Source of the DNA: a virus
Direction: 5' to 3' (one strand)
IMG/VR virus record: IMGVR_UViG_3300043773_002340
Location: 1 to 64,000 of that record
Length of the DNA: 64,000 bases
In this document: piece after piece, positions 2,645-61,852 of the stretch
How the letters are laid out: the number at the start of each line of letters is the position of its first letter
How positions within the stretch are numbered: the first letter of the stretch is position 1
Position numbers and translations under genes: made by a program
Notes under the pieces: generated by a model
What the model saw: the letters and a program-made list of their open reading frames with translations, nothing else
The model's database searches: none
What the model was told of the DNA's origin: nothing

Positions 2645-2652
2645 TTTTACCC
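2645..2652 (-). promoter_or_regulatory. GGGTAAAA junction motif, instance 1
   Basis: The minus strand reads GGGGTAAAAG five bases after the stop of the 1501-residue structural gene and 41 bases before the ATG of the collar fibre. It is one of 13 exact copies at gene junctions, interpreted as a late promoter or processing signal. Confidence 0.6.
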
Positions 2653-2657
2653 CGAAG

Positions 2658-5600
2658 TTAGGCAGCCAGGAACAGAATGCCATAGAAGGAAGTTGTGGCA
2701 GGTGGAGCCGAGGTGAAGGTTATAGTTGTCCCGTTAATCGTGTAAGCGATGTTTGCCGCCTGAACGATGCCGCCAACAGTGACTAACACGTATTGGGAGG
2801 CTTTGGGACTAGCCGGCACCCCATTAACTGTCAAAGTGAATTGTGTCTGGGCACCATCAAATTTTGGAGTCAGACTGTCAAGAATCTGAATAAACGAGAC
2901 CCCAATGCTGAGCGTTCCATCGGGAGCGATGTTGATGCCAGCTCCTTGCTTGACACCACCGATTTGTCCTCCAGTGCTAGGGGGCTGTAGATTAAGAACT
3001 CCAGAGTTTGTGGATGCTAAGCCTGTGCCGGGTCTGATACCGCCAATATTTGAACTTGTTGGAGGGACTAAATCAAGTTCGTTCGTCGTTGAGTTGATTT
3101 GCAGTCCAACTCCGGTGTCAACACTTACGTTCCCAGTGGTTGTGATGGTGCCACCATTGAGACCGCCACCGAAAACAATAGAGGAGACGGTACCAACCGC
3201 TTTTCCGGCGTTGACGCTAATCGTCCCATCATCATCAATAAAGACGTTCTCTCCGGCTTTGACGCCTCCAATAAAATCTGCGTCAGGAGGAACGAGGGAG
3301 ATGACACCCTGATTGAAGATCGGTCCACCCGCCAAACCTTCACCAGTAAACACTGCGGAGACCCCTCCGCCTCCACTACCACCACCACCACCATTTATAC
3401 CGCCAGCATCTTGACGAGTGAAGTCAGTGATATCGGAGGTGTAAGCGCCATATGGACGGCCTGTGCCCGTTTGAGTGAAATCACCAGATGTCGGAAGATC
3501 GCCTTTCTCATCAGCACCGGTCAGTAGGAGTGAACCACCCCAAGCTTCAGACGACAGGTAATCGTAATACTGCTTGGTTGGAATCTCATTTTTGAGATAA
3601 GCGGGAAGACCCTTCGAATAGAGGAGGCGACCAGCGCTGTGGAAACTATGCGACAGCGCATTGATTCGTGAAGGACTGGCAAAAGCAACCGGCCAAGCGC
3701 CCGTTGCTAACGCGTAGCCATTTTCGGGCTTCTCGATTAAGGTGGCGATAGGCTGATTTCGATACGACTCAATCCTGGGACTCAGCAAACGAGTGATGAA
3801 TGCAGGACTGTAGCCCATGATTTCGAGGAACCGGATCATAGCAGACTTGGAGGGGCTCCAGTCTTTGTCGTATTTTGCGGGATTCACAAATGATTGTGGA
3901 CTCTGCAATGTGACAATAGTGTCAACCGGGAAATCGGCAGTCTGCTCAGTTCCGTAAAATCCCCTTAAGACGGTGATGATGTTATTGTCAGTGTCGACGG
4001 CGAGAAGCTGACAATACTCGATTCTCTTAGTGTTTGCTGGATCTGTTAGGGAGACGACAGAAAATGTGGTGGATGGATTGGGGAAGTCCTCGACCGAAAC
4101 AACTGGAATGACAGTCTGAAGCGGAGTAATCTCATCGGGGGACGTGGTGTCAACTCCTGTGGGAACTTTGTAGTCAAGGAGACCCAGAGTTGGAGACCCG
4201 TCATCCTCATTGTAAAGAAGTTCGAACGGATAATTAACAGTCAGCGGACTATCACCGCGGAAGTAATAACCGTCTTCGTAGTCCTCCACAAGGGGATCGG
4301 CGGCATACTGACCTTGATATGTCGTTTTTACCGGAGCGAGAATCTCAGATGTGGCTGAAATGGCCCACGCGGAATTGAATTGTCCGGGCGCAATTTTAAT
4401 TTGAGTGACTGGCTTGAGTTCATCACTGAAATACACCAAGTCCCACATGTCATTGGCGGCAGCGTACCAGTTACGCTCCTCATATGTGGAATAACCACCG
4501 TGAGTCGTGTTTCTGTCTTGTTGCCACGGCCGACCCGTGTCTCCAAGCGACAGACCCACGTAGTATGTGCTGTCTGTCCCCCTGTTAATGAGGACTTCAT
4601 TCAGCTGGGGTGAGTCGCCAATGTATCCCAACTCGGAGAAGGCGACTCGGAAAAGTCGGCCCCACCCACCGCTTTGAGCGGGGTCAAACTGCACGCCCGG
4701 GCGCAACACGGCGTTCGCTGATTGGCTATCCTGATTGAGACGCAGAACGGCACCAACAGCGGGATCCCTGTGGCTGGGAGTGGTGTTTTGTAGAATGAGC
4801 TCGTATGAAGAGTCGGCGATATTGCGAGGATCTTTCCAACGGCGGATGTACGGCGGAGACCAATTTTCCAGGTCTTTATTAACCGTAATCGTGCCCACTG
4901 GAAAACTGGAGTCGACACGCCGCATCCGCAAAGTGCAACTGCCATCATCCTGCACAATCACAGTTGGGAGACCGTCGTCAATGAAAGATGCCGAGTAGAG
5001 ATTTGACAGATCGTTAGAGTAGAGACGCGTGGAAGGGGCGAGAGAGTAGGGTTGAATAGAAGCGGGAGTGAATCCGGGGCCGATCACGATCTCTTGAAGG
5101 TCATTGCTAACATTCTTGACCGAGAGGATGTTAGGCCCTAATGAGTATAGAGTGACATTGGTGGCGTCAGCGGGTTTCAAATTCTGCGGCATACGAATTC
5201 CTGTCACCAGGAATCCGGCATCTCCAGAATCAACTGTTCCAATTGAAGAGGTGCCAATGCCACTAAACCCGTCAGAGTAGAGGGCGACATTGGTGAAGTT
5301 GGATGCCGAGTTGGTGATCGTCATCTTTCCACCGCCCGCCGCCCAGTAGCCCACGGCTACACCAATAGTCCAACACGAATCCGCTTGAATGTAGGCGTTG
5401 TTAGAGGACTTGATGGAGAAGTGCCTAAAGTCTGTCTCTGGGTCAGTAATGCCGTACGACAAACCGTCCGCATTCTTGTAATCGGCGTAGTAGTACCGAA
5501 TGTTGACAATATCAGTCTTGTTGAGCAGCTCCATCTGAGCTGCCTTGGGGACGAGACTTGGTGCAGCGGGACGGACAGCAGCGGGAAGGGCGGCCCATGC

Positions 5601-7163
5601 AGCATAGCCGAGGGGATACCACCCAGTCAGCTGTTTCAGATTGATGGGGTCTTGGACTGTGGTATAGATCTCATAAGCTCCCGGGTCGTTCTGAAGCGAA
5701 GTTGCCGTGAATTGAGTTAGGATCGCTGAGCGGAATCCGGTCACCAATGCGCCGTCTTGCTCGACTCCACAGAGACCATAGTTGGAACGAAGACTGACGT
5801 TGTAGCAGTAAGGCGAGGAGTTTTCTGTGGTGTTCGCAAGAATCGACTCACCAACTCCGGTCTTCACTGGCGCGACGATCTCAGTCTCGCCAGGATTGAT
5901 CACTTCGGCCTGATTCGCCTTTCCGGAGAAGGTCTTGGGGAAAGCCAACTGGACCTTTTGGTAGAAGACGTCGAGTTCGGCCTTCGTGGCAGGATACAGG
6001 GATGTCAGGCGATTATGCGAGTAGATATCCCAAGCGCATGTCGCTAGATACCCGACATTCTGCGGAGTTGCCGGAAGCTGAGATCTTTCGACGAAGTTCG
6101 GATCATTCGTCACCATGTTTGTGAACGAAAGATAGAACTCATTCACACCCACCGGGTAGGCGTAGTAGAAGTTCTCCACAGTGGCAGAACCACCGCTCGG
6201 TGTCCGCTGATCTGTGCCAGGAGCGTACTTGAAATAGACTTTGTCGTTGAACCCCAAACAGTGGGGACGTGAACTCACAAGGATACCTTCTCCGGCCGGT
6301 CCCGTCCTAAAGTCGGCGACTGTGATATCAGCGACTTTATCTCGGAAAGAGAGAAGTTGAACGATCGAGTTGCCGGTCCACTTGAGAATCGCCGACTTAG
6401 GCTGAGTTGTGCCCGTGTTTGTCACCGGGTCTTTGTAGGTCGGCACGTAGGTGGGACGAAGCTGAGTCTTTCTCAGGTCCATTCCCGTGATGGAAGTTCC
6501 GCGCGGGAGTGGGAGTCCACCTGTCAGAGGGTTGAACTGTTGAAGGACGAGAGGGACCGGCAGGTCCGCGTCGTCCTTTTCGAAGTTGACGTTGAACTCA
6601 GCGACGTTGGAGCCGTTGTTGTCGACAGCGATTGGGAGACCCGGGCCGTTGTAGACGGGGGTCACACCTGGAGACACCACGATCGTGTAGCGAGCATTGC
6701 GAGCCGCGTCGCTCTCATTCAGTTGGGCGATGGAGGTCTTCGCGACCTCGATCACGGCTCGGTTGATTGTTTTGAAGGGGATGGCTTGACCATCATTCTC
6801 GATGGCATCAGAAGCATTCGGAAACTCGGGAGCCACGAACACCACGAGACCGTCTGTGCCACCAAGATAAGGTGCCGCGATGTCTTTCCAGACTTGAGAG
6901 GCGGTGGCAGGATCGATCGAACCGATCTTCAGGGTGCCGTCGCCCTCATCAAAAAACATTTCCCCGAGGGAGGGAAAGGGAGTCGGTGGGACCAGGCCGA
7001 CCGATGTCGGTCCCACCTTCACAACACTGTTGTTGTCCGCTTCGAAGAAGAGGCCGGGGGTCAGAGCGTTCGTGTTGAGAGCAAGTTCGCCCGGATCCAA
7101 AATATCCGAGTTTGGGCGCTTATTCGGAATGCTCGAACGCTTGAGAGTCAGTCTGACGGCCAT
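2658..7163 (-). CDS. Large virion structural protein with beta-helix domain (cyanophage type)
   Basis: The product is 1501 residues. The N-terminus (about 5-60) has the array's docking-type module (KRSSIPNKRP, DPGELALNT, PGLFF, VKVGP). The region from about 105 to 500 (IPFKTINRAVIEVAKTS, YTIVVSPGV, LPLPRGTSITGMDLRKT, SNYGLCGVEQDGALVTG) closely resembles the pectin-lyase-like domain of a conserved structural protein of T4-like cyanophages, recalled from family knowledge. The C-terminal 250 residues hold a poly-glycine linker and repeats of the IGGVKxGxGxxIxxDGT type shared with the 1041-2603 product. The ATG at 7163 follows a leader holding GGGTAAAA. A baseplate or fibre-base role is plausible. 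Enzymatic activity on polysaccharide is possible for a beta-helix, but no catalytic residues were identified. Confidence 0.85.
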   Translation of the reverse strand: MAVRLTLKRSSIPNKRPNSDILDPGELALNTNALTPGLFFEADNNSVVKVGPTSVGLVPPTPFPSLGEMFFDEGDGTLKIGSIDPATASQVWKDIAAPYLGGTDGLVVFVAPEFPNASDAIENDGQAIPFKTINRAVIEVAKTSIAQLNESDAARNARYTIVVSPGVTPVYNGPGLPIAVDNNGSNVAEFNVNFEKDDADLPVPLVLQQFNPLTGGLPLPRGTSITGMDLRKTQLRPTYVPTYKDPVTNTGTTQPKSAILKWTGNSIVQLLSFRDKVADITVADFRTGPAGEGILVSSRPHCLGFNDKVYFKYAPGTDQRTPSGGSATVENFYYAYPVGVNEFYLSFTNMVTNDPNFVERSQLPATPQNVGYLATCAWDIYSHNRLTSLYPATKAELDVFYQKVQLAFPKTFSGKANQAEVINPGETEIVAPVKTGVGESILANTTENSSPYCYNVSLRSNYGLCGVEQDGALVTGFRSAILTQFTATSLQNDPGAYEIYTTVQDPINLKQLTGWYPLGYAAWAALPAAVRPAAPSLVPKAAQMELLNKTDIVNIRYYYADYKNADGLSYGITDPETDFRHFSIKSSNNAYIQADSCWTIGVAVGYWAAGGGKMTITNSASNFTNVALYSDGFSGIGTSSIGTVDSGDAGFLVTGIRMPQNLKPADATNVTLYSLGPNILSVKNVSNDLQEIVIGPGFTPASIQPYSLAPSTRLYSNDLSNLYSASFIDDGLPTVIVQDDGSCTLRMRRVDSSFPVGTITVNKDLENWSPPYIRRWKDPRNIADSSYELILQNTTPSHRDPAVGAVLRLNQDSQSANAVLRPGVQFDPAQSGGWGRLFRVAFSELGYIGDSPQLNEVLINRGTDSTYYVGLSLGDTGRPWQQDRNTTHGGYSTYEERNWYAAANDMWDLVYFSDELKPVTQIKIAPGQFNSAWAISATSEILAPVKTTYQGQYAADPLVEDYEDGYYFRGDSPLTVNYPFELLYNEDDGSPTLGLLDYKVPTGVDTTSPDEITPLQTVIPVVSVEDFPNPSTTFSVVSLTDPANTKRIEYCQLLAVDTDNNIITVLRGFYGTEQTADFPVDTIVTLQSPQSFVNPAKYDKDWSPSKSAMIRFLEIMGYSPAFITRLLSPRIESYRNQPIATLIEKPENGYALATGAWPVAFASPSRINALSHSFHSAGRLLYSKGLPAYLKNEIPTKQYYDYLSSEAWGGSLLLTGADEKGDLPTSGDFTQTGTGRPYGAYTSDITDFTRQDAGGINGGGGGSGGGGVSAVFTGEGLAGGPIFNQGVISLVPPDADFIGGVKAGENVFIDDDGTISVNAGKAVGTVSSIVFGGGLNGGTITTTGNVSVDTGVGLQINSTTNELDLVPPTSSNIGGIRPGTGLASTNSGVLNLQPPSTGGQIGGVKQGAGINIAPDGTLSIGVSFIQILDSLTPKFDGAQTQFTLTVNGVPASPKASQYVLVTVGGIVQAANIAYTINGTTITFTSAPPATTSFYGILFLAA

Positions 7164-7184
7164 GTTGCTGAGGAGCGAGTGCGG

Positions 7185-7205
7185 GCCCGTGAAGACGGGC
7201 TTTTT
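7185..7205 (+). terminator. Terminator-like hairpin oriented for plus-strand transcripts
   Basis: Read on the plus strand, GCCCGT-GAAG-ACGGGC is followed by TTTTT. No plus-strand gene is credible here, so it may act against antisense transcription, act as a leader hairpin of the minus-strand mRNA, or be fortuitous. Confidence 0.35.
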
Positions 7206-7209
7206 ACAC

Positions 7210-7217
7210 TTTTACCC
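7210..7217 (-). promoter_or_regulatory. GGGTAAAA junction motif, instance 2
   Basis: GGGGTAAAAG begins three bases after the stop of the 52-residue gene and ends 46 bases before the start of the 1501-residue structural gene. A GC hairpin lies between motif and start codon. Confidence 0.6.
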
Positions 7218-7220
7218 CGA

Positions 7221-7379: not shown

Positions 7380-7409
7380 CGCTTTCCAGGATCTAGTCCC
7401 AGTATAGCA

Positions 7410-8105
7410 TCACTCCTCGTCGAGGGACTCCTCATCCTCTTCCTCATCCGCTTCCTCGTTGTCTGCGGGGGAGTAGGACTGGCCGGGGTCGGCGCTATCA
7501 TCACCACCTGCGGACTTCAGATTCTTGCCCTCGGCGAACTCCTGAAGCATGGCCTCAAGACGGGAGATTTTTTGGTCGTTCTCGTCGATGGCCTCGACAA
7601 AATCACGGAAAGGATTTGCCTCGTCCTGGTGATTCTGGGAATCATACATCATCCCGTCATTCATTTCGTGACGGAAACGGCCGTTGTCGAGAACGCTCAT
7701 CTTGGCCTCGACGGCGGAGATGGCCTTCATCACATCGTTGCGTTCCTTAACGATGCGGTGCTCGTCTTGGAAGTTGCCGAGTTGGCGAGCACGACGGAGT
7801 TGCCCACCCAGATTCTCCTGCATCGACATCAGACGAGTGAGTTCTCCCTCCAGGGAGTTGTACTCGCCAGTGCCTTGCTCCTCGCCGTAGTTGAACGAAG
7901 AGGGACCGCTGCCACGGGGTTGGTTGCCGTAGAAGGCGGAGTTAGGCTGCCAGGGCTCATCTTCCTTCTTCAGCTTGCTGACCTGAGGGGAGAGAACAGG
8001 CACGTCTTCGGCTTCGATGCCGGTGCCGTGGGAGCCACGCTCGCTGAATTCATACAGCTCGTACGCCTGCTTAAGTGCGGCGTCGGCAATCGAATCTTTA
8101 CGCAT
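7410..8105 (-). CDS. Acidic coiled-coil protein, possible head-internal protein
   Basis: The product is 231 residues. The N-terminus is helical (ADAALKQAYELYEFSERG). A central coiled coil spans about 83-140 (LEGELTRLMSMQENLGGQL, RIVKERNDVMKAISAVEAK), a second helix lies at about 165-192, and the tail is very acidic (EEADEEEDEESLDEE). FSE (20-22) and FAE (190-192) match the tripeptide enriched in the prohead protease/scaffold at 59186-61762, which suggests processing inside the head. It starts a run of small charged genes that ends at terminase. I know no homologue. A scaffold-accessory or capsid-internal role is inferred from composition, the shared tripeptide and the neighbours. Confidence 0.8.
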   Translation of the reverse strand: MRKDSIADAALKQAYELYEFSERGSHGTGIEAEDVPVLSPQVSKLKKEDEPWQPNSAFYGNQPRGSGPSSFNYGEEQGTGEYNSLEGELTRLMSMQENLGGQLRRARQLGNFQDEHRIVKERNDVMKAISAVEAKMSVLDNGRFRHEMNDGMMYDSQNHQDEANPFRDFVEAIDENDQKISRLEAMLQEFAEGKNLKSAGGDDSADPGQSYSPADNEEADEEEDEESLDEE

Positions 8106-8127
8106 TTGTCGGAGGACTTTAGAACTA

Positions 8128-8135
8128 TTTTACCC
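8128..8135 (-). promoter_or_regulatory. GGGTAAAA junction motif, instance 3
   Basis: Here GGG TAA is itself the last glycine codon and stop codon of the upstream gene (8130-8543). The motif ends 22 bases before the ATG at 8105. Confidence 0.6.
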
Positions 8136-9390: not shown

Positions 9391-9674
9391 CGGTGGTGAC
9401 TCCAGTCCCGAAGGGACGACATTTCTTCTCGGATTTGAATGAGTTGGGAGTTGATGTTTTCGTGCCAGCTTTCTTCGGCTTGCATGTGAGTCAGGAGTTC
9501 TTCCTTCGTCACATATGATTTGGGGATCTCAACTCGAAGTTCGGTGAGGGTGCTCTCCACACTGGTGAGAGTGTTTGTCATCTCATCGAGATTTCTCTTT
9601 CCGAGGTAGAGAATCACCGAGAGCATGAAGCCGGCAACTGGACCTGCGATGGCAATGAGCAATGAAGCAGTCAT
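9387..9674 (-). CDS. Single-pass membrane coiled-coil protein
   Basis: The product is 95 residues. A hydrophobic segment at about 3-24 (LLIAIAGPVAGFMLSVILYL) is followed by KR and then a coiled coil to the end (LDEMTNTLTSVESTLTEL, HENINSQLIQIREEMSSL). One N-terminal membrane anchor plus a coiled coil fits several small phage proteins, including pinholin-like, spanin-like and membrane-tethered accessory proteins. There is no second membrane segment as in a classical holin and no lipobox cysteine. It overlaps both neighbours by a few bases (ATGA type), so it is translated with the head-protein run. A lysis role is possible but not supported by any adjacent endolysin. Confidence 0.8.
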   Translation of the reverse strand: MTASLLIAIAGPVAGFMLSVILYLGKRNLDEMTNTLTSVESTLTELRVEIPKSYVTKEELLTHMQAEESWHENINSQLIQIREEMSSLRDWSHHR

Positions 9675-10372
9675 CAGCCTGGCAGACCCGAACCACCTTC
9701 TTCAAGACGCTGTTTCACGGACTCGGGCAGGGCCGACTCCAGACCCATTTCCTTGGCGATGGCGATGATACGCTTCATCACAGCACGTGGTTTTTTCGCG
9801 CGACCGACGGACGACCACGCGGCTTTCACATCAGTGGCATTGGAGATAGGGAAGCTCTGGTCCGGACCGGCGAACTTGCCCTTTACATCACCTTTGGCGA
9901 GCTCTTTACGCTTCTCTGTGCTCCACTCGCGATACTCGGCGTCTTTGCGCTTTTTGTCATTACAGGAGGCGCAGGAACCACAGGCGCAGCCCTCTTCAAA
10001 TGCGGGCATGAACGAGCCCATCGCGAGATACTCATCCTCTTGTTCGGAGAATGTGTATTCCTTCGACTTCAATTCGCGATGTTCGGCGGCACGGAGAGAG
10101 CGGCGACCCATGATCTCGCTCATCGCTTGACCACCGTCGGCGTACTCATTCATGTCACGATTGATGAGATTGACACGACTGTCACGGCGCTCCTTGTGAT
10201 TGGCGAGCCGCATCTCGTTATGATCGGTTTTTCCGATGGTCATGAATCCTTCTTCATTGACTCCAGCACCCCACTTCCGACGTTCTTTGTTCTCCTTCTT
10301 GAGACCGGGACCTGACTGGGAGTTGGAGGCATTGATAAAGCCCCCAGCTCCAGGTAGAACGACGCCGTCCAT
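9674..10372 (-). CDS. Head-associated protein with Cys cluster and conserved C-terminal domain
   Basis: The product is 232 residues. The N-terminal half is charged and probably disordered (KKENKERRKWGAG). TFSE at 107-110 is another copy of the recurring tripeptide. A compact cluster, CxCxxCxxC, lies at about 129-137 (GCACGSCASC) and could bind metal. The C-terminal 70 residues (KFAGPDQSFPISNATDVKAAW, RAVMKRIIAIAKEMG) resemble a small domain found at the ends of phage and prophage head-maturation proteins (family recall, number uncertain). It lies downstream of a GGGTAAAA motif and overlaps the next gene. A role in the head is inferred; the zinc-binding idea rests only on cysteine spacing. Confidence 0.8.
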   Translation of the reverse strand: MDGVVLPGAGGFINASNSQSGPGLKKENKERRKWGAGVNEEGFMTIGKTDHNEMRLANHKERRDSRVNLINRDMNEYADGGQAMSEIMGRRSLRAAEHRELKSKEYTFSEQEDEYLAMGSFMPAFEEGCACGSCASCNDKKRKDAEYREWSTEKRKELAKGDVKGKFAGPDQSFPISNATDVKAAWSSVGRAKKPRAVMKRIIAIAKEMGLESALPESVKQRLEEGGSGLPG

Positions 10373-10394: not shown

Positions 10395-10402
10395 TTTTAC
10401 CC
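10395..10402 (-). promoter_or_regulatory. GGGTAAAA junction motif, instance 4
   Basis: GGGTAAAAC follows the stop of the 10408-10776 gene by five bases and ends 22 bases before the ATG at 10372. Confidence 0.6.
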
Positions 10403-11096: not shown

Positions 11097-11539
11097 CAGG
11101 CTCCTCGACGAATTTGGAGTTGGGGATCATTCCAGGTAGGCGCGTTATGTCCCACTTGAGTCTGTCTGCGGGGTTTTTTAGTTTTTGCCTCTTGCTCTTT
11201 CATGTCCGAAATCATAACGTCCCTCATGCGCCTTAACACATTATGAGGGACGCTGCAGTATTTTGAATTTTTGTACGAACGGTACAAGTGGCAGACATGA
11301 GAGGGGTCATCGGCACCCTTAAACATATTCCAGATGCCGAGTTGCTCTTGGTTAGAGAGATCTGCTCTCACGAGCTCCTCGGAAAAAGACACGCCGGTGT
11401 CGACCTTTGACTTGGAAGGAGGCGGGTTGTTATCGTCGCTACTGACACCCATAGGGCGCAAGTAAGGTAGCGCAGGCGCCATGACCATGGCGTCCAGGTC
11501 ATGCGAAGGCGAACGATTCCAGCGTGTCGATTTTCTCAT
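11096..11539 (-). CDS. Hypothetical protein downstream of PhoH
   Basis: The product is 147 residues. Residues 1-45 are proline- and serine-rich and probably flexible. The remainder contains DTGVSFSEELVRADLSNQ and a short helical domain with histidines and cysteines (PSHVCHLYRSYKNSKYCSV, then VLRRMRDVMISDMKEQEAK). Residues 52-54 form one FSE tripeptide. It overlaps the end of the PhoH gene by one base and shares an ATGA overlap with the following gene, so it belongs to the same operon. The His/Cys spacing (CHLY...YC) is suggestive of metal binding but too sparse to claim. No function is assigned. Confidence 0.75.
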   Translation of the reverse strand: MRKSTRWNRSPSHDLDAMVMAPALPYLRPMGVSSDDNNPPPSKSKVDTGVSFSEELVRADLSNQEQLGIWNMFKGADDPSHVCHLYRSYKNSKYCSVPHNVLRRMRDVMISDMKEQEAKTKKPRRQTQVGHNAPTWNDPQLQIRRGA

Positions 11540-12267
11540 CAGTCGTCGTAACGGTCCAGAATGTGGGCGATGACAGAGTTGCGAACAATGTCCTCTTTGT
11601 GGAACTCCAGGATGCCCACGTCCTGAAGGTGACGCAGACGGTATATGGCGTCAACCAGACCGTTCTCACGGCGGAAGACGTCAAGGTCTGCCTGTTTGGT
11701 GTCACCGATCAACACCATCTTGCTGTCCTGTCCCACACGAGTTAGACAGGTTTTAACGTGTGATGGGAGGAAGTTTTGAACTTCGTCGACAATGACGAAC
11801 GACTTGTTCAGTGAACGACCTCGGATGTCCTCGAGGAGCAGTGGCTCAACTATGCCCTTGTCAAGCAGGTAGTTAGCGGCTCCATGCGACCGGCAACACA
11901 CGGGGATGTTGTCAAGAATCGGTCCAAGGAGCGGAGCGATTTTCTCGCTCATGTCGCCGGGAAGCGCACCACGTCCACGTTGAAACTCGACTCCGACGTC
12001 GGAGCGAACGTAGACGACCTTGTCAAAGTCACCTTTGGCGACGAGACTGAGGCCGGTCCAGAGAGCCAACAGGGTTTTGCCTGTTCCTGCTGAACCGTGA
12101 GCGATGGTAACTGTGTTTGTTTTGATGAGTCGGTTGAACTCCTCCTGGCGGTGAGTCTGAAACTTCACGGGGAGGATGTCCATCCCACGTGATTCGTAAC
12201 CCATCTTCGTCTCGATCATGTCGACTTGACGACGAAGTTTTCTTTTTTCGCGCGCGCTAACACTCAT
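11539..12267 (-). CDS. phoH: PhoH-family ATPase
   Basis: The product is 242 residues from the ATG at 12267 (MSVSAREKRKLRRQ). PhoH proteins are P-loop ATPases, widespread in cyanophages and of uncertain role, possibly in RNA metabolism or phosphate stress. The Walker A motif is AHGSAGTGKT at about residue 59 of this start, Walker B is FVIVDEVQN, and a sensor-like LIGDTKQAD follows. An in-frame ATG at 12363 would add 32 residues. I prefer the later start because the extra residues do not resemble PhoH N-termini, but the leader contains a consensus Shine-Dalgarno and a 15-base palindrome that complicate the choice. It lies downstream of terminase, with a GGGTAAAA motif between. The family call is secure and the start is uncertain. 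Confidence 0.92.
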   Translation of the reverse strand: MSVSAREKRKLRRQVDMIETKMGYESRGMDILPVKFQTHRQEEFNRLIKTNTVTIAHGSAGTGKTLLALWTGLSLVAKGDFDKVVYVRSDVGVEFQRGRGALPGDMSEKIAPLLGPILDNIPVCCRSHGAANYLLDKGIVEPLLLEDIRGRSLNKSFVIVDEVQNFLPSHVKTCLTRVGQDSKMVLIGDTKQADLDVFRRENGLVDAIYRLRHLQDVGILEFHKEDIVRNSVIAHILDRYDD

Positions 12268-12296
12268 ACAATAAGGGAAAGTGAAACTCTTGGGGA

Positions 12297-12311
12297 TCTC
12301 ACAATGTGAGA
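12297..12311. promoter_or_regulatory. Perfect 15-base palindrome in the phoH leader
   Basis: TCTCACA-A-TGTGAGA is an exact inverted repeat with a single central base, 29 bases upstream of the preferred phoH ATG. It could be a dimeric-repressor operator or, in RNA, a tight hairpin close to the ribosome binding region. Confidence 0.45.
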
Positions 12312-12330
12312 GTACTTGGGTCTTAAGCCA

Positions 12331-12343
12331 CCTATCACCTCCT
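12331..12343 (-). promoter_or_regulatory. Consensus Shine-Dalgarno without a normal gene start
   Basis: The minus strand reads AGGAGGTGATAGG, a near-complete match to the anti-Shine-Dalgarno. The only start codon at the right spacing is a GTG that gives a two-codon frame ending in TAA. An 11-codon frame (MRNDAPLPYRR) upstream ends inside the AGGAGGTGA. Confidence 0.5.
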
Positions 12344-12392
12344 GTATGGTAGAGGTGCGTCATTTCTCATACGAGAGATGCGATCACTCCAG

Positions 12393-12400
12393 TTTTACCC
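12393..12400 (-). promoter_or_regulatory. GGGTAAAA junction motif, instance 5
   Basis: GGGTAAAAC begins two bases after the terminase stop codon and precedes the phoH leader. It is 125 bases before the preferred ATG, or 29 before the alternative one. Confidence 0.6.
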
Positions 12401-12402: not shown

Positions 12403-14127
12403 TTAGCCGTCCCATCCCACGCCTCTTCCACGACTCCGCCGTCCACGCATAATCCTTTCGCTTGTCGTCTCCACGATGTCCGCGGTCTCGATTCCCCATC
12501 CCTCCGGTCTGAGTGTGCGGGTTGGCGTTTTCCCCAACGTGGTGAACACCGAAGAGTCGTCGACTTCGGCGCGTCTTGTCGAACCGAGAAACTTACGGTG
12601 AGTGATGATAGACTCGGCCAACATCCTATTTCCAGAGTCAACATGTTCTAGGAAATAATGTAATCCCCAAACCATGGAGTCAGTGCGGTCATCATGCGCG
12701 ACATACGGAAACTGTGTGAGTTCGCGGATGAACGGATCACACCAGATCCCCTCGACAAACTTCACCCTTCCCTGTTCAAAGAGTGGGGAGACCGCCTGAA
12801 GACGAATCGTCTTTGACTTAAGTGGTTTGAATTCCTCAATGGGGATTTTCGCCTCACGCCTTAGAACTTGAATCAGCGACTGTCCCGAGGCCGCTTTTTC
12901 AATGCAGAGAACTCGAGCGGAATAAAGACGATAGAGATGTTTGACAGACTCAATGAGGTCTGGAAATGCCCATCTTCCAGTGATAATTTCAATTAAGTAG
13001 ACAGTTTGTGGGTCCTCTTTGTTAATCCCACACACGGCCACTGCAGTTTCGTCGGCCATTTCTCTTTCTGAGAAAGCACAGTCAACTGCTAGCCAAGTCA
13101 CATCAAACTTTGGAGCTTCTTCGGGCTCAACTTTTGAAATCCACCCAGGCCGGATAATCTGGCCCTCATCACTTTTGGGGACGCCTTGATAAAGAGCTGC
13201 GAACTTAAAGCTCCCCATCGCCTTTTTCTGCGACTGGAGCATGTCTACAGTGAATGCCGTGTTTGTTGGCCAATGAGACTCGCCAAACTGTCTGCCAAGA
13301 GGATCACCTGCCACGTCTTCACAAAGACCCGCTATGTTAATCCAACGCCAGCCAAAAGGATTTTCTTCTTCATCATATAGTCCGTCTCTCTCCATTAGCA
13401 CGCCATGCAGATCCCGCTCATGAAATCGGGTTGCAATCACCATCTGGCACCAATGGTTTGTTCGACGAGTAGACGCCTGTTCTGCCCACCATGATTCAAG
13501 GCTTTCTAATGCAGCCTTAGAGTCGGAAGATTTCAGCGGGTCATCAATCACCATGGCGCCCACACCTGGGGATTCCATGTCTGTGGTTCCTGCTGTGAAA
13601 CCCGTCAACACACCACCCACCGACGTGGCGAGAATGTATCCGCCGCCAAGCAGGTCATATTTAGAATCGGGGCTAAACCCTGAAAACTCCGGAAAAATCT
13701 TTTTGAAGGTCGGCATCTTCATCATTTGCACAGCTTCTCGGTGAAACTTTCCGGACAGCTGAGCACCGTACGATGCGATAACGTGCTGTGTCTTTTGGTC
13801 TCTCCCGAGTAACCACGACAAAAACATCGTGGCCAGCATTGACTTTCCAGAACGAGGAGGGCATGACACAATAAGACGCCGCTGGCGCTTAGTGGCTAAA
13901 TCTTCAAAAGCAGAACCCAGAATCTCATGAAACTCGGCCACTTGCAGGTCGCCGCCTTTCATCAACTCAGCAAAAGCCAGAAAGCAGTCGCGTGCCGCTC
14001 TATGTTTGAACTCGTGAATAACGCTTTTCGGCGCTTCCATCACCACGAGCTCGTGCAGTCCCCGCTGGTACTTTCTCCAGCTGCTGTGTTCCTCAAGCTG
14101 CGAGACGTGCGTGATGATTGGTCTCAT
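12403..14127 (-). CDS. terL: Terminase large subunit
   Basis: The product is 574 residues. It is the packaging motor ATPase and nuclease that cuts concatemeric DNA and drives it into the prohead. The Walker A motif is SCPPRSGKS at about 85, Walker B is GAMVIDDP at about 190, and a coupling motif ATRFHERD follows at about 230. The C-terminal RNase H-like nuclease has acidic positions in WLAVDCAFSE, CIEKAASG and DDRTDSMV. It ends in a basic arginine- and glycine-rich tail. I chose the ATG at 14127, which overlaps the HNH gene stop as ATGA; an upstream in-frame start would lie inside that gene. The closest resemblance is to Mu-like terminases. It is intact. Confidence 0.95.
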   Translation of the reverse strand: MRPIITHVSQLEEHSSWRKYQRGLHELVVMEAPKSVIHEFKHRAARDCFLAFAELMKGGDLQVAEFHEILGSAFEDLATKRQRRLIVSCPPRSGKSMLATMFLSWLLGRDQKTQHVIASYGAQLSGKFHREAVQMMKMPTFKKIFPEFSGFSPDSKYDLLGGGYILATSVGGVLTGFTAGTTDMESPGVGAMVIDDPLKSSDSKAALESLESWWAEQASTRRTNHWCQMVIATRFHERDLHGVLMERDGLYDEEENPFGWRWINIAGLCEDVAGDPLGRQFGESHWPTNTAFTVDMLQSQKKAMGSFKFAALYQGVPKSDEGQIIRPGWISKVEPEEAPKFDVTWLAVDCAFSEREMADETAVAVCGINKEDPQTVYLIEIITGRWAFPDLIESVKHLYRLYSARVLCIEKAASGQSLIQVLRREAKIPIEEFKPLKSKTIRLQAVSPLFEQGRVKFVEGIWCDPFIRELTQFPYVAHDDRTDSMVWGLHYFLEHVDSGNRMLAESIITHRKFLGSTRRAEVDDSSVFTTLGKTPTRTLRPEGWGIETADIVETTSERIMRGRRSRGRGVGWDG

Positions 14128-14696
14128 GACAGAAACTCCGCTGTGAAACCGCACGTTTGACGATTTCGACCACTGAGAACATTCGAAATCATCGACTGAT
14201 GAATCCCGAGGAACTCAGCTGCTGCTTTCACCGATGGAAATACGGCAGTTTCCCCTGTGTCAACATCACGAATCTTCACGGTTTTTCTGCATGCCTCCGC
14301 TCTCCTGGCATCTGCGAGAGCGTGAAGTTCTGGATTTTTTCTGTGCCACTCTTGAAGGTTTTTCCCGTTCGCCACTTTCACATCGCGCGGACCATTTTTT
14401 CCACCCCACCTTCCCCACTCTTTCTTCGCCTCCGCATGACGACTGTTCGTCACACGAGAACCTTTCTTCCCTGCGAGGGACAGAATCTCGAGGAGAATCT
14501 CTTCTTTCGTTTTCTGTCCCGCAAGACCTTTCCAGGCCAGAAGATCTTCGGGTTTCCCCCACAACTGCCAGTTCGTGAAGTGAAACATCGCGTGGCGAGT
14601 GAGAGAAATGTCGCGAATCAGGTTCGACTCATCGTCAGTCCCACCCATGTGTCTCGGCAGAAGGTGGTGTGTGTGCGTAAGGTGTTTTTTCCCCAT
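14124..14696 (-). CDS. HNH homing endonuclease with NUMOD-type C-terminus
   Basis: The product is 190 residues. Residues 1-40 form an HNH-type core (HLTHTHHLLPRHMGGTDDES, NLI, RHAMFHF) with the paired histidines and asparagine expected for a metal-dependent nicking or cutting nuclease. The middle is basic and glycine-rich (GRWGGKNGPRDVK). The C-terminus (TGETAVFPSVKAAAEFLGIH, SMISNVLSGR) matches the NUMOD1-type helix-turn-helix module that gives DNA specificity to free-standing homing endonucleases. It sits between a candidate small terminase gene and terL and shares an ATGA overlap with terL, so it has inserted without breaking the operon. Upstream, CTATATT resembles a -10 element. The family call is confident; the target is unknown. 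Confidence 0.9.
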   Translation of the reverse strand: MGKKHLTHTHHLLPRHMGGTDDESNLIRDISLTRHAMFHFTNWQLWGKPEDLLAWKGLAGQKTKEEILLEILSLAGKKGSRVTNSRHAEAKKEWGRWGGKNGPRDVKVANGKNLQEWHRKNPELHALADARRAEACRKTVKIRDVDTGETAVFPSVKAAAEFLGIHQSMISNVLSGRNRQTCGFTAEFLS

Positions 14697-15270: not shown

Positions 15271-15278
15271 TTTTACCC
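15271..15278 (-). promoter_or_regulatory. GGGTAAAA junction motif, instance 6
   Basis: GGGTAAAAAC lies one base after the TGA of the 15280-16518 gene. It is unusually close (five bases) to the next possible ATG at 15265. Confidence 0.55.
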
Positions 15279-18444: not shown

Positions 18445-18452
18445 TTTTACCC
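18445..18452 (-). promoter_or_regulatory. GGGTAAAA junction motif, instance 7
   Basis: GGGGTAAAACC is seven bases after the stop of the 18461-20320 gene and 58 bases before the next ATG. It is followed by CCACTTTACAAA, a 12-mer that also follows instance 8. Confidence 0.6.
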
Positions 18453-20411: not shown

Positions 20412-20419
20412 TTTTACCC
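20412..20419 (-). promoter_or_regulatory. GGGTAAAA junction motif, instance 8
   Basis: GGGTAAAAACC lies three bases after the stop of the 20423-21751 gene. A small ACCCC/GGGGT hairpin and the CCACTTTACAAA 12-mer follow in a 91-base leader. Confidence 0.6.
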
Positions 20420-34895: not shown

Positions 34896-34903
34896 TTTTA
34901 CCC
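34896..34903 (-). promoter_or_regulatory. GGGTAAAA junction motif, instance 9
   Basis: GGG TAA forms the final glycine codon and stop of the glycosyltransferase gene, and the motif ends 25 bases before the ATG at 34870. Confidence 0.6.
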
Positions 34904-43856: not shown

Positions 43857-43864
43857 TTTTACCC
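43857..43864 (-). promoter_or_regulatory. GGGTAAAA junction motif, instance 10
   Basis: GGGTAAAAC starts immediately after the TGA of the 43865-44428 gene and ends 17 bases before the ATG at 43839. Confidence 0.6.
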
Positions 43865-55660: not shown

Positions 55661-56203
55661 TCAACCAACAGGGCACTGATTGCTGGCAGCGGTGCCAGCG
55701 TAGTTATTGCAAGTGGAGTCTGCGCGGGCGTAGAACCCGTTGTCGATGAAGAGATTGTCAAGGCGCTGCTTCAGCATCAGCACGGTGACGAGATCCGCGT
55801 CTCCCATCGAGCTGAACTTTTGATCAAAGGTGGGATTTGAAACACCACCAGCAAACTGATATTTCGAGTTAGTGGTGAAAGAGAGAGGAGCGTTGAGAGG
55901 ATTGTTTGCCGGAACCCCCAAATCAAAACAGCCGGCACCCGCGGATTGTTCGTATCCGAAGTTCCAAGGACCGGTGACGGTCTTAGCGCCAGAAATAGGA
56001 GGTGTATTGTAGCAACCCGACTGCTCTCCAGCAAGAGTCACATAGCGGGAGTCAACACCGTTGGGCCCGCTAAACTGGAGGGAATCGAGACCAAGTTGAG
56101 GATAGTGCCAATCAAGGTCTGCACCATCAAAATATATCTGTTTCGCTCCGTTCAGCCACTGAGAGGTGACAATAACACCGCTCGAAAAAGTCGTCTTCGC
56201 CAT
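55661..56203 (-). CDS. Virion structural protein of unknown family
   Basis: The product is 180 residues. The N-terminus (TFSSGVIVTSQWLNGAKQIY, FDGADLDWHYPQLGLDSLQF) and a central segment (GPNGVDSRYVTLAGEQSG) resemble small structural proteins of cyanophages. The C-terminus contains a leucine-rich helix (DADLVTVLMLKQRLDNLFID) and a cysteine pair (STCNNYAGTAASNQC). It is preceded by its own unit boundary: a strong terminator, then GGGTAAAAC, then a 27-base leader. It is followed six bases later by the gpJ-like gene, so it opens the baseplate operon. A minor virion or fibre-tip role is possible; it is not assigned. Confidence 0.75.
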   Translation of the reverse strand: MAKTTFSSGVIVTSQWLNGAKQIYFDGADLDWHYPQLGLDSLQFSGPNGVDSRYVTLAGEQSGCYNTPPISGAKTVTGPWNFGYEQSAGAGCFDLGVPANNPLNAPLSFTTNSKYQFAGGVSNPTFDQKFSSMGDADLVTVLMLKQRLDNLFIDNGFYARADSTCNNYAGTAASNQCPVG

Positions 56204-56230
56204 CCGAAGTGTTCGGTTCTGTGTTAGGGT

Positions 56231-56238
56231 TTTACCCT
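56231..56238 (-). promoter_or_regulatory. GGGTAAAA junction motif, instance 11
   Basis: GGGTAAAACCC follows the tail-tube terminator by seven bases and precedes the ATG at 56203 by 27 bases. A terminator directly followed by this motif is the best positional argument that the motif starts transcription. Confidence 0.65.
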
Positions 56239-56245: not shown

Positions 56246-56270
56246 AAAAGCCCCCGCCGAAGCGAGGGCC
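56246..56270 (-). terminator. Strong rho-independent terminator with UUCG loop
   Basis: On the minus strand GCCCTCGC-TTCG-GCGGGGGC is followed by TTTTTAG. The eight-pair stem (one GU pair) with a C(UUCG)G tetraloop ends the capsid and tail-tube transcription unit. Confidence 0.88.
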
Positions 56271-56286
56271 GAGTGTAGGGTTTGGA

Positions 56287-56730
56287 TCAGTTACGTTCCC
56301 AGTAGTTGCATGTCATCGAGATCTCGATGGTCTGCACATCACCGGAGTCGCGAGCGACTTCAGCGGTGGTGATACTGGTCAGCAGGCATTCGTAAAGAAT
56401 GTACTGACCACCACCAGGACCAGAGTTCAGACCGTCACAGCTGCGAGGAGTCACCGTTACGGTGATCTTCTGACAGTTGTAATCGATCCAAAACTGTTCG
56501 AGGGGTTTGAAGATCGCTGGATCGTACGGGGCGCCGAGAGTAATATCGTCGGCGGTACGAGGACCAACAACGTGGTAGATCCGGTTCCCTGTGCCGTTGG
56601 CGTAAGTTGACGAGTCGCTGGAGTCCTGTACTCCGGAAAACTCGGTGAAGACCGCAGTGAAGGTCGGTCCGCCGGCAGCGGTGAACGAAACTTCGTACTG
56701 GGCCTTTGTTAGTGGGCGCAGAATAGCCAT
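56287..56730 (-). CDS. Tail tube protein (gp19-like)
   Basis: The product is 147 residues. The pattern (LRPLTKAQYEVSFTAAGGPT, FTAVFTEFSGVQDSS, DDITLGAPYDPAIFKPLEQF, VQTIEISMTCNYWE) matches the tail-tube fold of contractile and related tails. In that fold an N-terminal strand is followed by a FxE(F)SGVxxxS loop, and the C-terminus forms the closing strands. Hexameric rings of this protein build the inner tube. The ATG at 56730 has an exceptionally complete Shine-Dalgarno. A strong terminator follows the gene. No sheath gene adjoins it, although sheath and tube are usually neighbours. The family call is confident from the loop and strand pattern. Confidence 0.87.
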   Translation of the reverse strand: MAILRPLTKAQYEVSFTAAGGPTFTAVFTEFSGVQDSSDSSTYANGTGNRIYHVVGPRTADDITLGAPYDPAIFKPLEQFWIDYNCQKITVTVTPRSCDGLNSGPGGGQYILYECLLTSITTAEVARDSGDVQTIEISMTCNYWERN

Positions 56731-56731
56731 G

Positions 56732-56744: not shown

Positions 56745-56758
56745 AGTAACTAGCCTTA

Positions 56759-57814
56759 TCAGGCCAGAATGTTGGTGATCATCGCGCCAGAACCGATCAG
56801 ACCGGTGGTGCCAAGGCCCACAGGGTGCACAGCGCGCTCGACGGTGATCTCAGCGCGGACCACGCGACGCTCACGGATGTAGTACTCAGGACGCACGGCA
56901 GGGGTGCCGGTCAGCTGGTAGGTGTAAGCGAAAGCCGGAGTAGCGGCGTTAGCACCACCAGCAGGCATCACAGCGTCAGAAGGACCATTCGGGCTATAGA
57001 ACAGCAGGACGCCGTTCTCAGGGAACACGGGCAGCAGCTGACCGTTCTCGGCCAGATAACGACCCTCAGCCACGCGGATGCCGCGCTCCAGACCGAAGTA
57101 ACGAGCAAGCATGTCCACGTCGATCGAATCGGCGGTGGTGTACTTGATACGCTCGAGGATGCTCTGGTTGGTCAGCAGTTGGTCGAAGATCGCAGTACCA
57201 ACGATCATCGAGTTCGGGCGGATGCCGATCTGGTAGGAGACGGCACGCTTTAGGGTCAGAACAGCTTCGATCGGGTTCGAAGTGGGGTCGCTCCAAGGAG
57301 CAGCACCAGCAGCGGCACCGTAGGAAGTCTCAAACTGAGTGAAGGTCTCGAAACCGAGGCCGGTCTGGGAACCAGGAACGCCGCTGTAAGGCTCGTAAGG
57401 GTTGAAGGAACCGGTCACGGTCACGACTTCAGCCACGGTCTTCTCGTAGGCGTTCATCAGGCGGGACATGGCGTTGCGAGTTTCGATCGCACGCAGGTCA
57501 ACCTGAGCAGGACCTTCGCCGGCGTTCTCGATGACTTCTTCGGGAAGTTCCCAAGCCACCACTTCCTGTTCCAGGGCGTAGGGCTCAGAATCGTAACGAG
57601 TCTGAACGTAAGGGATGTTGGTGCCATATGCACGACGGAAGTCGTTGATGGCGAACTGCTCTTTGCCGAAGCGCAGGATGCGGCCGGCACGAGTCGGAGT
57701 ATCCACAACAGGCGCGATGAAGTTCGCGATGTTGGTGGAGGGGAGCATGAAACCTTGTGCCAGCGTAGTCAGAATAGGATCTACGCCCGCATAGGTTTGG
57801 GCTAGGTTCATCAT
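56759..57814 (-). CDS. Major capsid protein (Mu gpT-like)
   Basis: The product is 351 residues. It matches the Mu-like/HK97-fold major capsid proteins: LPSTNIANFIAPVVDTPTRA near the start, IENAGEGPAQVDLRAIETRN around the spine helix, then GIRPNSMIVGTAIFDQLLTN and YFGLERGIRVAEGRY in the A-domain. It forms the icosahedral shell. Two adjacent ATG codons (57814 and 57811) could both serve as starts. The upstream GGAG lies in a GGAGTACTCC palindrome, and the 100-base leader holds a long hairpin. It is flanked by the decoration and tail-tube genes. The FAE-type cleavage tripeptide is absent from this protein. Confidence 0.92.
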   Translation of the reverse strand: MMNLAQTYAGVDPILTTLAQGFMLPSTNIANFIAPVVDTPTRAGRILRFGKEQFAINDFRRAYGTNIPYVQTRYDSEPYALEQEVVAWELPEEVIENAGEGPAQVDLRAIETRNAMSRLMNAYEKTVAEVVTVTGSFNPYEPYSGVPGSQTGLGFETFTQFETSYGAAAGAAPWSDPTSNPIEAVLTLKRAVSYQIGIRPNSMIVGTAIFDQLLTNQSILERIKYTTADSIDVDMLARYFGLERGIRVAEGRYLAENGQLLPVFPENGVLLFYSPNGPSDAVMPAGGANAATPAFAYTYQLTGTPAVRPEYYIRERRVVRAEITVERAVHPVGLGTTGLIGSGAMITNILA

Positions 57815-57855
57815 GGGAGGGAGTACTCCGTAAGTCTATAAAGATGATTTCAACG

Positions 57856-57909
57856 GGTTGCAACCGCTTGGACTTACACCCCGAAAGAGTAGCCAAGCGG
57901 TGAGCAACC
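57856..57909 (-). promoter_or_regulatory. Long structured hairpin in the capsid gene leader
   Basis: Arms 57856-57861 plus 57863-57871 pair with 57893-57901 plus 57904-57909: six and nine base pairs with a small internal bulge and a 21-base loop. The loop-side GTAAGTC (minus strand, 57877-57871) is complementary to GACTTAC at 57836-57830 beside the capsid ribosome binding site, so a pseudoknot is possible. The loop also holds GGGGTGTAAG, a variant of the junction motif. Confidence 0.7.
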
Positions 57910-57916
57910 AGATTAC

Positions 57917-58345
57917 TCAGCTGAACGAAACTGTCACCATACGGCGACCACCGATGTCGATGAGATCGCGAATGGTGGGCACAGTGCCGTCGGCTTGAAC
58001 AGCGGTGCCGGAAGCCGAAGCTTGACCGATGGCATTCACCAGCAGGGGGCTGTTGAAGGCGATAGGGCCGGAAGCGGGATCCACTTCGATCAGCAGCAGA
58101 CCGGATGTGGCGACAGTGGCCAGACGGGGGCTGGCAGGAGCGTCAGCGAACAGGGGGATGAAGGCTTGGTTCACACCCAGGATGGTGGTAGGAGTTGCGC
58201 CAGGCAGGGTGCAGATGCCCATGGAGGCACCCGCGCTCACGGCACGGAATTCACCGATGGCGACGGAAGGGTCGGCGGTGAAGGTTTCGGCGAAACGGAT
58301 GTACTGCTTGCCGTAAGCAGGAGCAGCGTTAGTCGAAGTAAACAT
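57917..58345 (-). CDS. Capsid decoration/cement protein
   Basis: The product is 142 residues. The small beta-rich sequence (AIGEFRAVSAGASMGICTLP, ILGVNQAFIPLFADAPA, LLLIEVDPASGPIAFNSPLL) has the short-strand, glycine- and alanine-rich pattern of DUF2190-like capsid cement proteins. Those are encoded directly upstream of Mu-like major capsid genes, as here. Such proteins bind the outer capsid surface and stabilise it. One FAE tripeptide occurs at residues 18-20. The gene has its own GGGTAAAA motif 57 bases upstream and precedes the capsid gene by about 100 bases that carry the hairpin. The assignment rests on synteny and pattern. Confidence 0.75.
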   Translation of the reverse strand: MFTSTNAAPAYGKQYIRFAETFTADPSVAIGEFRAVSAGASMGICTLPGATPTTILGVNQAFIPLFADAPASPRLATVATSGLLLIEVDPASGPIAFNSPLLVNAIGQASASGTAVQADGTVPTIRDLIDIGGRRMVTVSFS

Positions 58346-58402
58346 GTCTCAATTACGATTGGACTTTAATGTTGGCAAACGTGGGTTTACCAGTTGGAAT
58401 GG

Positions 58403-58410
58403 TTTTACCC
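58403..58410 (-). promoter_or_regulatory. GGGTAAAA junction motif, instance 12
   Basis: GGGGTAAAACC directly abuts the TAG of the gpF-like gene and lies 57 bases before the decoration gene ATG. Confidence 0.6.
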
Positions 58411-59184: not shown

Positions 59185-59185
59185 C

Positions 59186-61762
59186 TCAGGAGTACATTGC
59201 CTTCTTCAGGGCCTCGACGTAGTCGAGCTCGCCGCCAGACTTCTCTACCATCGAGAGAGCCTTTTGGTGAGGGTCCAGGTCCACCTCATCCACGAACTTC
59301 ATGGAACCACCAGCGTACTCGCTGAAGTCCACCAGGTTGGGAAGACGATCCAGGATGCTGAACAGCAGGCCAGTGGCGGTCTCACCTTCGGAGAACTCCA
59401 TGGTGCCGAACTCCAGACCTTCAGCGAACTCCATGAGTTTTTTCTCGGGGATGATGGAATCCACCATCTTGCCTTGCTCATAGAGACCTTCGACGAAGCT
59501 GTGAATCTGATCGCGACGACGAGCGATCTGAGCCTCACGGTACTCGTGCTTGATGCGAGCGTTCTCGGCTTTCAGGGCCTGCAGCTCGGCGTAGAACTCA
59601 CTGAACTCCTCGGACTCCGAGTAGTTCATCTTCTTGCCACCCTTCTTGCCGCAGTCCTCTCCCATTTCCATCTCATCTTCATCGTAGTCGCACCCTTCTT
59701 TGTAGGTGGATCCGAATCCGGTCTTGGAGTAGGGGTTCTGGTCCTTCTCATGCTCGGCATAGCCGGTGCTAACACCGCTGGGGCCTGTCTCTTCAGCCAC
59801 GCCACCTTCGAACTCGCCCGAGAGCATGTCCTTCTTGGAACGGGGCATGCCAGCTTGAGCATCGACTTCGTTGTGGTCTTCGGCGAAGTGACCCTTTTCT
59901 TTCACTTCCATCGCACGCTTTTTCAGCGCGGGGGGAAGCTTGTCCATCTTGCTCTCGGCATGATCATCGGACATATGCTCCTCTTTCTCCTTCATCTTTT
60001 TCTTGATGAAGTCGGGCATTTCCTTGTGGTCGGCACCGCCGGTCACGCCGGAAGGACCTGTCACCTCTGCGGGCTCTTCGTCCTCATCGGAGTCGAAAGC
60101 ACCAGGAGTCAGGGCTTTCTTACTGGACTTGGGCTCACCTTTGTAGGACTCAGCGTGCTCAGCGTAGACTCCACCGGACTTCAGAGTTGTCTCGTTAGGA
60201 CCACCCTCGAACTCGCCGGAGAGTTGCTTTTTCTTGCCTTCGGCATAGACGCCTTCCTTGCCAGTCACCTCAGCAGGCTGGGGCTCGGCATAGTCAGCCA
60301 TCACGGAACCAGGGATACCACCACCGTGAGACTTGGGCATCTTCTCGCCGCCCTTGATGTACATCACACGAGCGTTCTTGGCCTTAGCGACGTTCTCCAC
60401 GCCAACGGCGAAGATCTCGTCATCGGGCATCTCTTCGGTCTCAGTTGGGACCTTGGTCTCACCATCGACACGACCAGCAGGATTGCTGCCGGAGGCTGCT
60501 TCAGCATCGTTGACGCCGTAATCCACGTCGTCATCGTACTGGTTGTTGTTCATCATTTGATCGCGACTCATTTCGTCGTACCGTCCTTCATCGTCAGGGT
60601 CAACATAACGACCGGTCTTACGACGGTCTTCTTCGATCTCATTGTTCTTGGCAGGGGGACGACCAGCGTCATGCTGCTCTTTGCCAGTCGAGATCTTGTC
60701 ACGGCCGAAAGTGGCCTTTTCAGGAGTGGTCTTGCCTGTTTTGTAACGATCGGCCTGCTGCTCACCGCTCTTGGCGGTTTCGTAGCGGTCGTCGCCGTTG
60801 TAGCCGCCTTTAGGGCCGCCTTCGGCGTAGTTCACCTTGCCGGGCTCCATGCGGGGATTCCGCATTTTGGGAGCGTCGGCGCCACGCTCTTCGTGGTCAG
60901 TGTGCATTTCGTCTTCGTCTTCTTTGTAGACGTTCTCAACCACCTGCGACACTTGGCCGTGGGGGGTTTTCTTCTTTTTCCGGCTGATGCCTTGTTCTTC
61001 CATGAATTCGTCCTTAGGGAACTGGTCTTCAAGATCTGCGACTGACCGAGCGTTATCCCCACGGCGTGGGCGTTCGGAAAAGTTTGCAGGGTTGCTGGGG
61101 TTTTCGATTTCGGATGCGTTGTCCTCTTGCTCCTCCACCTCAGCCGACGTGTCTTCCACTTTCTGTTCCTCCGGAGTTCCGACGGCGTCCGCGACAGCGG
61201 CACGCATCTCACCCCTGGCGAGATCAAGTTTCTCCTTGAGCATTTCAAGGGGACTCAAGTCACGAACGAGAGTTGGTCCCAGGTCCTTGTCAAACACCGT
61301 CATCGGATCGATGGCTACGGCGAAGTCATAGACTCCGACGCGCTGATCCCATTCGGCAAAATTGAAGGGTTCCAAACCTTTCACCGCAGGGGGAGCGGCA
61401 CCAAGCAGCGCCAAATGGCGAGCGGTCCACTTTCCGGGATGCGGATTGATTTGGGAGTCTGGGGAGTAGAAGGAGATAGACACCTTTCGATAGTGTCCAT
61501 CTTTCACCAGGTCTTTCGCTACGTCAGTAAACGCAACGTTTGCGTACAGGTTATCACCCTGACGTTCAAAGCCTTTGATCCACCCGTATGAAGGCAGACT
61601 ATCAGAGTCACCCTGATGACCAAGCACAAGAGGTGCTTCGTGAATCTGGGGATCGTAGGAGGCAACGACCTGGTCTAGGTCTTTGGCACTGAAGCTTCGG
61701 GCCACACCCTGAGCTGACGTTTGATCGCCAGCCATAAACACATGAATGCGTTTTTGGAACAT
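59186..61762 (-). CDS. Mu gpI-like prohead protease fused to a long acidic scaffold
   Basis: The product is 858 residues. Residues 1-150 match the Mu I protease (HVFMAGDQTSAQGVARSFSA, HEAPLVLGHQGDSD, KVSISFYSPDSQINPHPGKW, TARHLALLGA). By analogy with this fold, H49 and a serine in KVSISF (95 or 97) are likely catalytic. Residues 200-700 are acidic, repetitive and probably disordered, with LSGEFEGG twice and TGPSGV twice. Residues 715-750 form a coiled coil, and the C-terminus is a short helical domain, as in phage scaffolds. [FY][AS]E occurs 14 times. Mu I has about 360 residues, so this is more than twice as long. It follows the portal gene. Confidence 0.88.
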   Translation of the reverse strand: MFQKRIHVFMAGDQTSAQGVARSFSAKDLDQVVASYDPQIHEAPLVLGHQGDSDSLPSYGWIKGFERQGDNLYANVAFTDVAKDLVKDGHYRKVSISFYSPDSQINPHPGKWTARHLALLGAAPPAVKGLEPFNFAEWDQRVGVYDFAVAIDPMTVFDKDLGPTLVRDLSPLEMLKEKLDLARGEMRAAVADAVGTPEEQKVEDTSAEVEEQEDNASEIENPSNPANFSERPRRGDNARSVADLEDQFPKDEFMEEQGISRKKKKTPHGQVSQVVENVYKEDEDEMHTDHEERGADAPKMRNPRMEPGKVNYAEGGPKGGYNGDDRYETAKSGEQQADRYKTGKTTPEKATFGRDKISTGKEQHDAGRPPAKNNEIEEDRRKTGRYVDPDDEGRYDEMSRDQMMNNNQYDDDVDYGVNDAEAASGSNPAGRVDGETKVPTETEEMPDDEIFAVGVENVAKAKNARVMYIKGGEKMPKSHGGGIPGSVMADYAEPQPAEVTGKEGVYAEGKKKQLSGEFEGGPNETTLKSGGVYAEHAESYKGEPKSSKKALTPGAFDSDEDEEPAEVTGPSGVTGGADHKEMPDFIKKKMKEKEEHMSDDHAESKMDKLPPALKKRAMEVKEKGHFAEDHNEVDAQAGMPRSKKDMLSGEFEGGVAEETGPSGVSTGYAEHEKDQNPYSKTGFGSTYKEGCDYDEDEMEMGEDCGKKGGKKMNYSESEEFSEFYAELQALKAENARIKHEYREAQIARRRDQIHSFVEGLYEQGKMVDSIIPEKKLMEFAEGLEFGTMEFSEGETATGLLFSILDRLPNLVDFSEYAGGSMKFVDEVDLDPHQKALSMVEKSGGELDYVEALKKAMYS

Positions 61763-61844
61763 GACTCTTACTTAACAACGACGGGTTTATTGGGGGTGCG
61801 AAACTTTGTCTCCCCTGGTAGTTTCCGTCGAATGACTGAGAGAG

Positions 61845-61852
61845 TTTTACCC
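61845..61852 (-). promoter_or_regulatory. GGGTAAAA junction motif, instance 13
   Basis: GGGTAAAACTC directly follows the TGA of the portal gene and lies 82 bases upstream of the protease/scaffold ATG. Confidence 0.6.

Follow-up and report, generated by a model that had tools for sequence, protein, structure and literature searches.

Strand-specific GGGTAAAA boxes at late gene junctions of a relative of Synechococcus phage S-CBWM1: a candidate promoter without a -35 element

Is a short word that recurs exactly at one gene junction after another a promoter, or a site at which mRNA is processed? The question is raised by a 64,000-nt stretch of viral DNA (the window; positions 1 to 64,000 of IMG/VR record IMGVR_UViG_3300043773_002340), in which a first-pass annotation had picked out GGGTAAAA at 13 gene junctions and offered both readings. 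The window is part of a 71.9-kb virus record in which every gene lies on the minus strand, and it corresponds to the late module of a virus related to S-CBWM1 and recovered by metagenomics, with genes for portal, head maturation protease, major capsid protein, baseplate, tail fibres, terminase and PhoH. Its major capsid protein and terminase are homologous to those of S-CBWM1 (Aokuangvirus; complete genome, 139 kb), the nearest and best-matching named relative, with 65% identity for the major capsid protein and 54% for TerL; the S-TIM5 group comes next, with 39 and 33%. The gene for the major capsid protein is itself split in two large relatives, G006 and G010, after about residue 96 (L137 385-937; L138 364-1851); the inserts are group I introns (Rfam RF00028), two or three in tandem.

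The window holds 14 exact copies of GGGTAAAA, every one of them on the minus strand, which is the coding strand, whereas shuffled versions of the window hold 0.97 on average and 4 at most; a 15th lies at 71358-71365 of the same record, beyond the window. Thirteen of the 14 scored copies fall at junctions, as defined by our own gene calls, and junctions make up only 4.9% of positions (binomial p = 1e-16). The concentration at junctions rather than in coding sequence is thus borne out, and 12 of the 13 coordinates first listed are exact, the other, 56231, being properly 56230. There is, as noted before, a single copy within a gene, but it occupies 46065-46072 (in gene 45834-49214), not 46075-46082, and is probably due to chance.

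Most copies in the window lie 17-91 nt before a start codon. Those at 2645-2652 and 7210-7217 precede the tail fibre genes 1041-2603 and 2658-7163 by 41 and 46 nt and are predicted promoter cores. The starts of genes 7410-8105 and 9674-10372 both follow 22 nt after their copies, at 8128-8135 and 10395-10402, respectively. The copy at 12393-12400 lies between the genes for terminase (12403-14154) and PhoH (11539-12363), 29 nt from the start of the latter, and S-CBWM1 likewise has GGGTAAAA ahead of phoH. Two tail genes, 16734-18386 (tail collar fibre-like) and 18461-20320, start 58 nt after 18445-18452 and 91 nt after 20412-20419. Downstream of 34896-34903, a small ORF begins after 25 nt, and the head-tail adaptor gene 42676-43839 starts, with GTG, 17 nt after 43857-43864. 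The copy at 58403-58410 is 57 nt before the start of 57917-58345, the gene that precedes the major capsid gene (56759-57814), and this junction carries the motif in S-CBWM1 and most metagenomic relatives too. Finally, 61845-61852 lies between the genes for portal (61853-63268) and head maturation protease (59186-61762), at a junction shared with S-CBWM1.

All 13 junction copies had been described as adjoining or overlapping an upstream stop codon. This holds for 12 of them, and at 8128 and 34896 the motif itself does provide the stop codon. It fails at 56230-56237, 26 nt before the start of 55661-56203, where the neighbouring TGA does not terminate the upstream gene (56287-56730). Between the two lies the intrinsic terminator already noted there (56249-56270, minus strand; 9 pairs, 7 of them G-C), and the motif follows directly after it.

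The pattern extends well beyond the window. In 1.33 Mb comprising the window, S-CBWM1 and metagenomic relatives, the strands are far from equally served, the coding strand holding 363 copies and the opposite strand 1; the best single-base variant gives 52 versus 15, and none comes near the exact word. S-CBWM1 contributes 33 coding-strand copies and 1 on the other strand. In this phage alone, AGGTAAAA also recurs at junctions (six sites), and because it shares both the placement and the spacing, the core in S-CBWM1 is (A/G)GGTAAAA. Comparison with relatives shows that motif positions are kept at matching junctions. In 43 of the 61 relatives long enough to test, a copy precedes the major capsid gene by 596-726 nt; of 48 testable for the other side, 36 have a copy up to 1,000 nt beyond the gene, usually at a distance of 527-593 nt. 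Between the window and S-CBWM1, the matching junctions are portal/protease, post-protease, phoH and post-capsid. Some S-CBWM1 copies are ahead of genes that are not obviously late, and those at 19573 and 24755 precede genes for tRNA-Gly and tRNA-Thr.

Alignment of 172 non-redundant sites gives the logo [AC]GGGTAAAA[CT][CT]A, and purines are then preferred (A 52-54%) at the positions 7-8 nt beyond the motif. Sites from the closest relatives are partly dependent on one another, but the trend recurs when the set is restricted to the 48 sites of the window and S-CBWM1. In the -35 region of the 172-site logo there is nothing, as the first-pass annotation had remarked. A separate scan of 50-64 kb for sigma-70 type promoters at the motif showed no excess of such sites, and a Markov k-mer test was dropped, as conditioning on sub-words masked the motif. 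At 156 of 178 non-redundant sites, an ATG opening a long ORF occurs within 130 nt. The distances to the first ATG at these 156 sites are distinctive: 9 are of 2-7 nt, none is of 8-17 nt and the majority begin abruptly at 18-22 nt. Such a gap would arise because a transcript started about 7 nt after the motif is either leaderless or has a leader into which a ribosome site fits. At 15271-15278 in the window, the ATG is 5 nt after the motif; it belongs to the small gene before terminase, for which relatives also have an ATG 4-6 nt after the motif (L012 908; L022 5262), and this gene may be leaderless.

GGGTAAAA is therefore a strand-specific, conserved element at a fixed distance from the signature of a start site, and it very probably acts as a promoter. 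Our preferred reading, with a probability of about 0.65 on the sequence evidence, is that a phage sigma factor of the P0003 type, on the host RNA polymerase, reads it as a minimal late promoter. The motif would be the core of a single-element promoter, from about -14 to -7 and without a -35 box, and transcription would start at a purine about 7 nt further on. The sigma would be SigF-like (P0003 in S-CBWM1 and its relatives, P0004 in S-TIM5). Motif, strand bias, conservation, spacing and lack of a -35 element are observed, as are the presence of the sigma and its affinity to SigF; we infer the start of transcripts at the motif, their late timing and the identity of the reader.

S-TIM5 provides an independent replicate, with genes on both strands. 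GGGTAAAA is not enriched there (1 junction site). The 8-mer most enriched upstream of S-TIM5 genes, in the same position, is GTTTAAAG, found at 27 junctions; 18 of these lie before genes annotated as virion genes, as opposed to 28 of the remaining 168 (p = 2.6e-7; virion labels transcribed from the S-TIM5 record). Its spacing is mostly 18-49 nt, it is without a -35 element and a purine bias follows at 7-9 nt. A G[TA]TTAAAG motif is present in S-TIM54 too. Two further S-TIM5 words (L112-L115) behave otherwise. GATTAAAG, pooled at first with GTTTAAAG, may form a separate class, virion genes following only 2 of its 11 junctions, and TGATATAA, at 12 junctions of which 1 precedes a virion gene, resembles an early promoter of the extended -10 kind for the host sigma.

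The proposal that a phage-encoded sigma or polymerase outside the window could read the motif agrees with what the relatives encode. The 71.9-kb record does not extend to any sigma gene, and S-CBWM1 has two, P0002 and P0003, both conserved in relatives. P0003 has region 2 and a region-3-like helix-turn-helix; region 4 is not recognisable with profiles, which are the basis for regarding it as lost, and the AlphaFold model is too poor for a fold search (mean pLDDT 52). Among NCBIfam profiles, SigF or SigB/F/G are the best matches for all four P0003-type proteins tested, through regions 2-3 only, and these proteins stay below the curated cut-off for a whole-profile match to the SigF family (NF005644 / TIGR02980). 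The S-TIM54 sigma was labelled SigF by its depositors. In S-TIM5, the single sigma found, P0004, shows homology to P0003 (E = 5e-8) and none to P0002.

P0002 has regions 2 and 4, is ECF/SigK/RpoS-like, and could read the same promoter in place of P0003. It is as well conserved, lying beside P0003 in relatives, and it is weakly related to proteins that T4-like cyanophage annotations call sigma factors; in that group, late genes use a phage sigma. This assignment is nevertheless rather unlikely, as promoter architecture is identical in S-TIM5, in which no P0002 homologue was found, and as region 4 of P0002 would predict a -35 element where none is seen.

A P0003-type reader would account for the form of the box. 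The elements recognised by Synechocystis SigF are TAGGC at -32 and GGTAA at -12 (PMC2758279), and factors of the SigB type read GGGWAW (PMC8346170). A SigF-like factor without region 4 would be expected to read a GGTAA-type element without the -32 box, and the sequence agrees: GGTAA is contained in GGGTAAAA. The same GGTAA, which cyanobacterial SigF needs, would also suit exploitation by the phage of the host's own SigF, a group 3 sigma. That is improbable, however, since TAGGC, which SigF needs as well, does not appear in the logo and was not found when searched for directly at a spacing of 15 nt, and since S-TIM5, another Synechococcus phage, has a different core. One observation speaks against the P0003-type reader: in S-CBS2, a siphovirus with two sigma factors, one of them distantly SigF-like, the GGTAA motif was not found. 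The words enriched upstream of genes there are GGCATCCTA and TATACTGG, each at about six genes (L139-L140).

The other half of the original proposal, cleavage of polycistronic late mRNA between genes by an endonuclease acting at the motif or close to it, fits the facts poorly. The copies do lie between operon genes and near stop codons, and their sequence is almost invariant. At three divergent S-TIM5 junctions (49.5, 57.0 and 122.8 kb), however, GTTTAAAG stands back to back, one copy per direction, where no transcript arrives from upstream that could be cut; such an arrangement is explained by promoters and not by a processing signal. A terminator precedes the window copy at 56230, and the sharp spacing and the start-like purine signal agree with initiation, so that processing is a highly improbable function. 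A ribosome-binding or translational coupling element, suggested by nearness to start codons, is very unlikely, as the distance to the start varies from 2 to more than 100 nt and the copies before tRNA genes in S-CBWM1 argue against a translational role.

The late promoter of T4 is the obvious comparison. Its box is TATAAATA, which does not occur in S-CBWM1 on either strand, and the earlier remark that the two boxes differ is correct. The likeness lies in the architecture, a lone -10-type box without a -35 element ahead of virion genes, for which a phage sigma on the host polymerase is proposed here too; the differences are the box, GGGTAAAA (or GTTTAAAG in S-TIM5), and a sigma that is SigF-like. 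T4 late promoters consist of an 8-bp box near the start site, without a -35 element, and depend on the gp55 sigma, gp33 and the gp45 clamp (PMC2988020). PF02916 gave no match to a clamp of the gp45 type in six records (S-CBWM1, S-TIM5 and relatives), although a diverged clamp is possible. Cyanobacterial SigF promoters share GGTAA, and their sigma factors the profiles that P0003-type proteins match best, but the phage promoter has no TAGGC element at -32 and its proposed sigma no recognisable region 4. SigB promoters of B. subtilis and Streptomyces, GTTTAA-N12-14-GGGWAW (PMC8346170), are alike in a -10 element beginning GGGTA, whereas GGGTAAAA is without a -35 partner. The Microcystis phage Ma-LMM01, similarly a freshwater cyanomyovirus with temporal gene classes, has no homologue of gp55 or gp33, and its late promoters resemble host SigA promoters (PMC5780444).

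Tentatively, a lineage history can be drawn in which a SigF of host type was captured and shed region 4 together with the need for a -35 element, giving a T4-like but clamp-independent late programme based on a nearly invariant 8-mer; in the S-TIM5 sister lineage, 8-mer and sigma might then have changed jointly, the 8-mer to GTTTAAAG. If the promoter reading is true, these phages have taken a second, apparently independent route to control of late genes via a minimal -10-only promoter, and GGGTAAAA and GTTTAAAG, with their sigma factors, are two natural pairs in which the evolution of region 2 specificity can be followed. Operons and leaderless genes would become predictable from sequence in many uncultured cyanophages, and the box could serve as a compact, host-orthogonal promoter for cyanobacteria. 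No earlier description of GGGTAAAA in cyanophages was found in the open-access literature, although an earlier mention is possible.

S-CBWM1 has one further element in this neighbourhood. Several GGGTAAAA or AGGTAAAA sites in its genome are immediately preceded by a repeat, GATGTGAAAGATT...CACTGTCCC, with occurrences at 26633, 65857, 96451, 126611, 132314 and 135656 (L109-L111).
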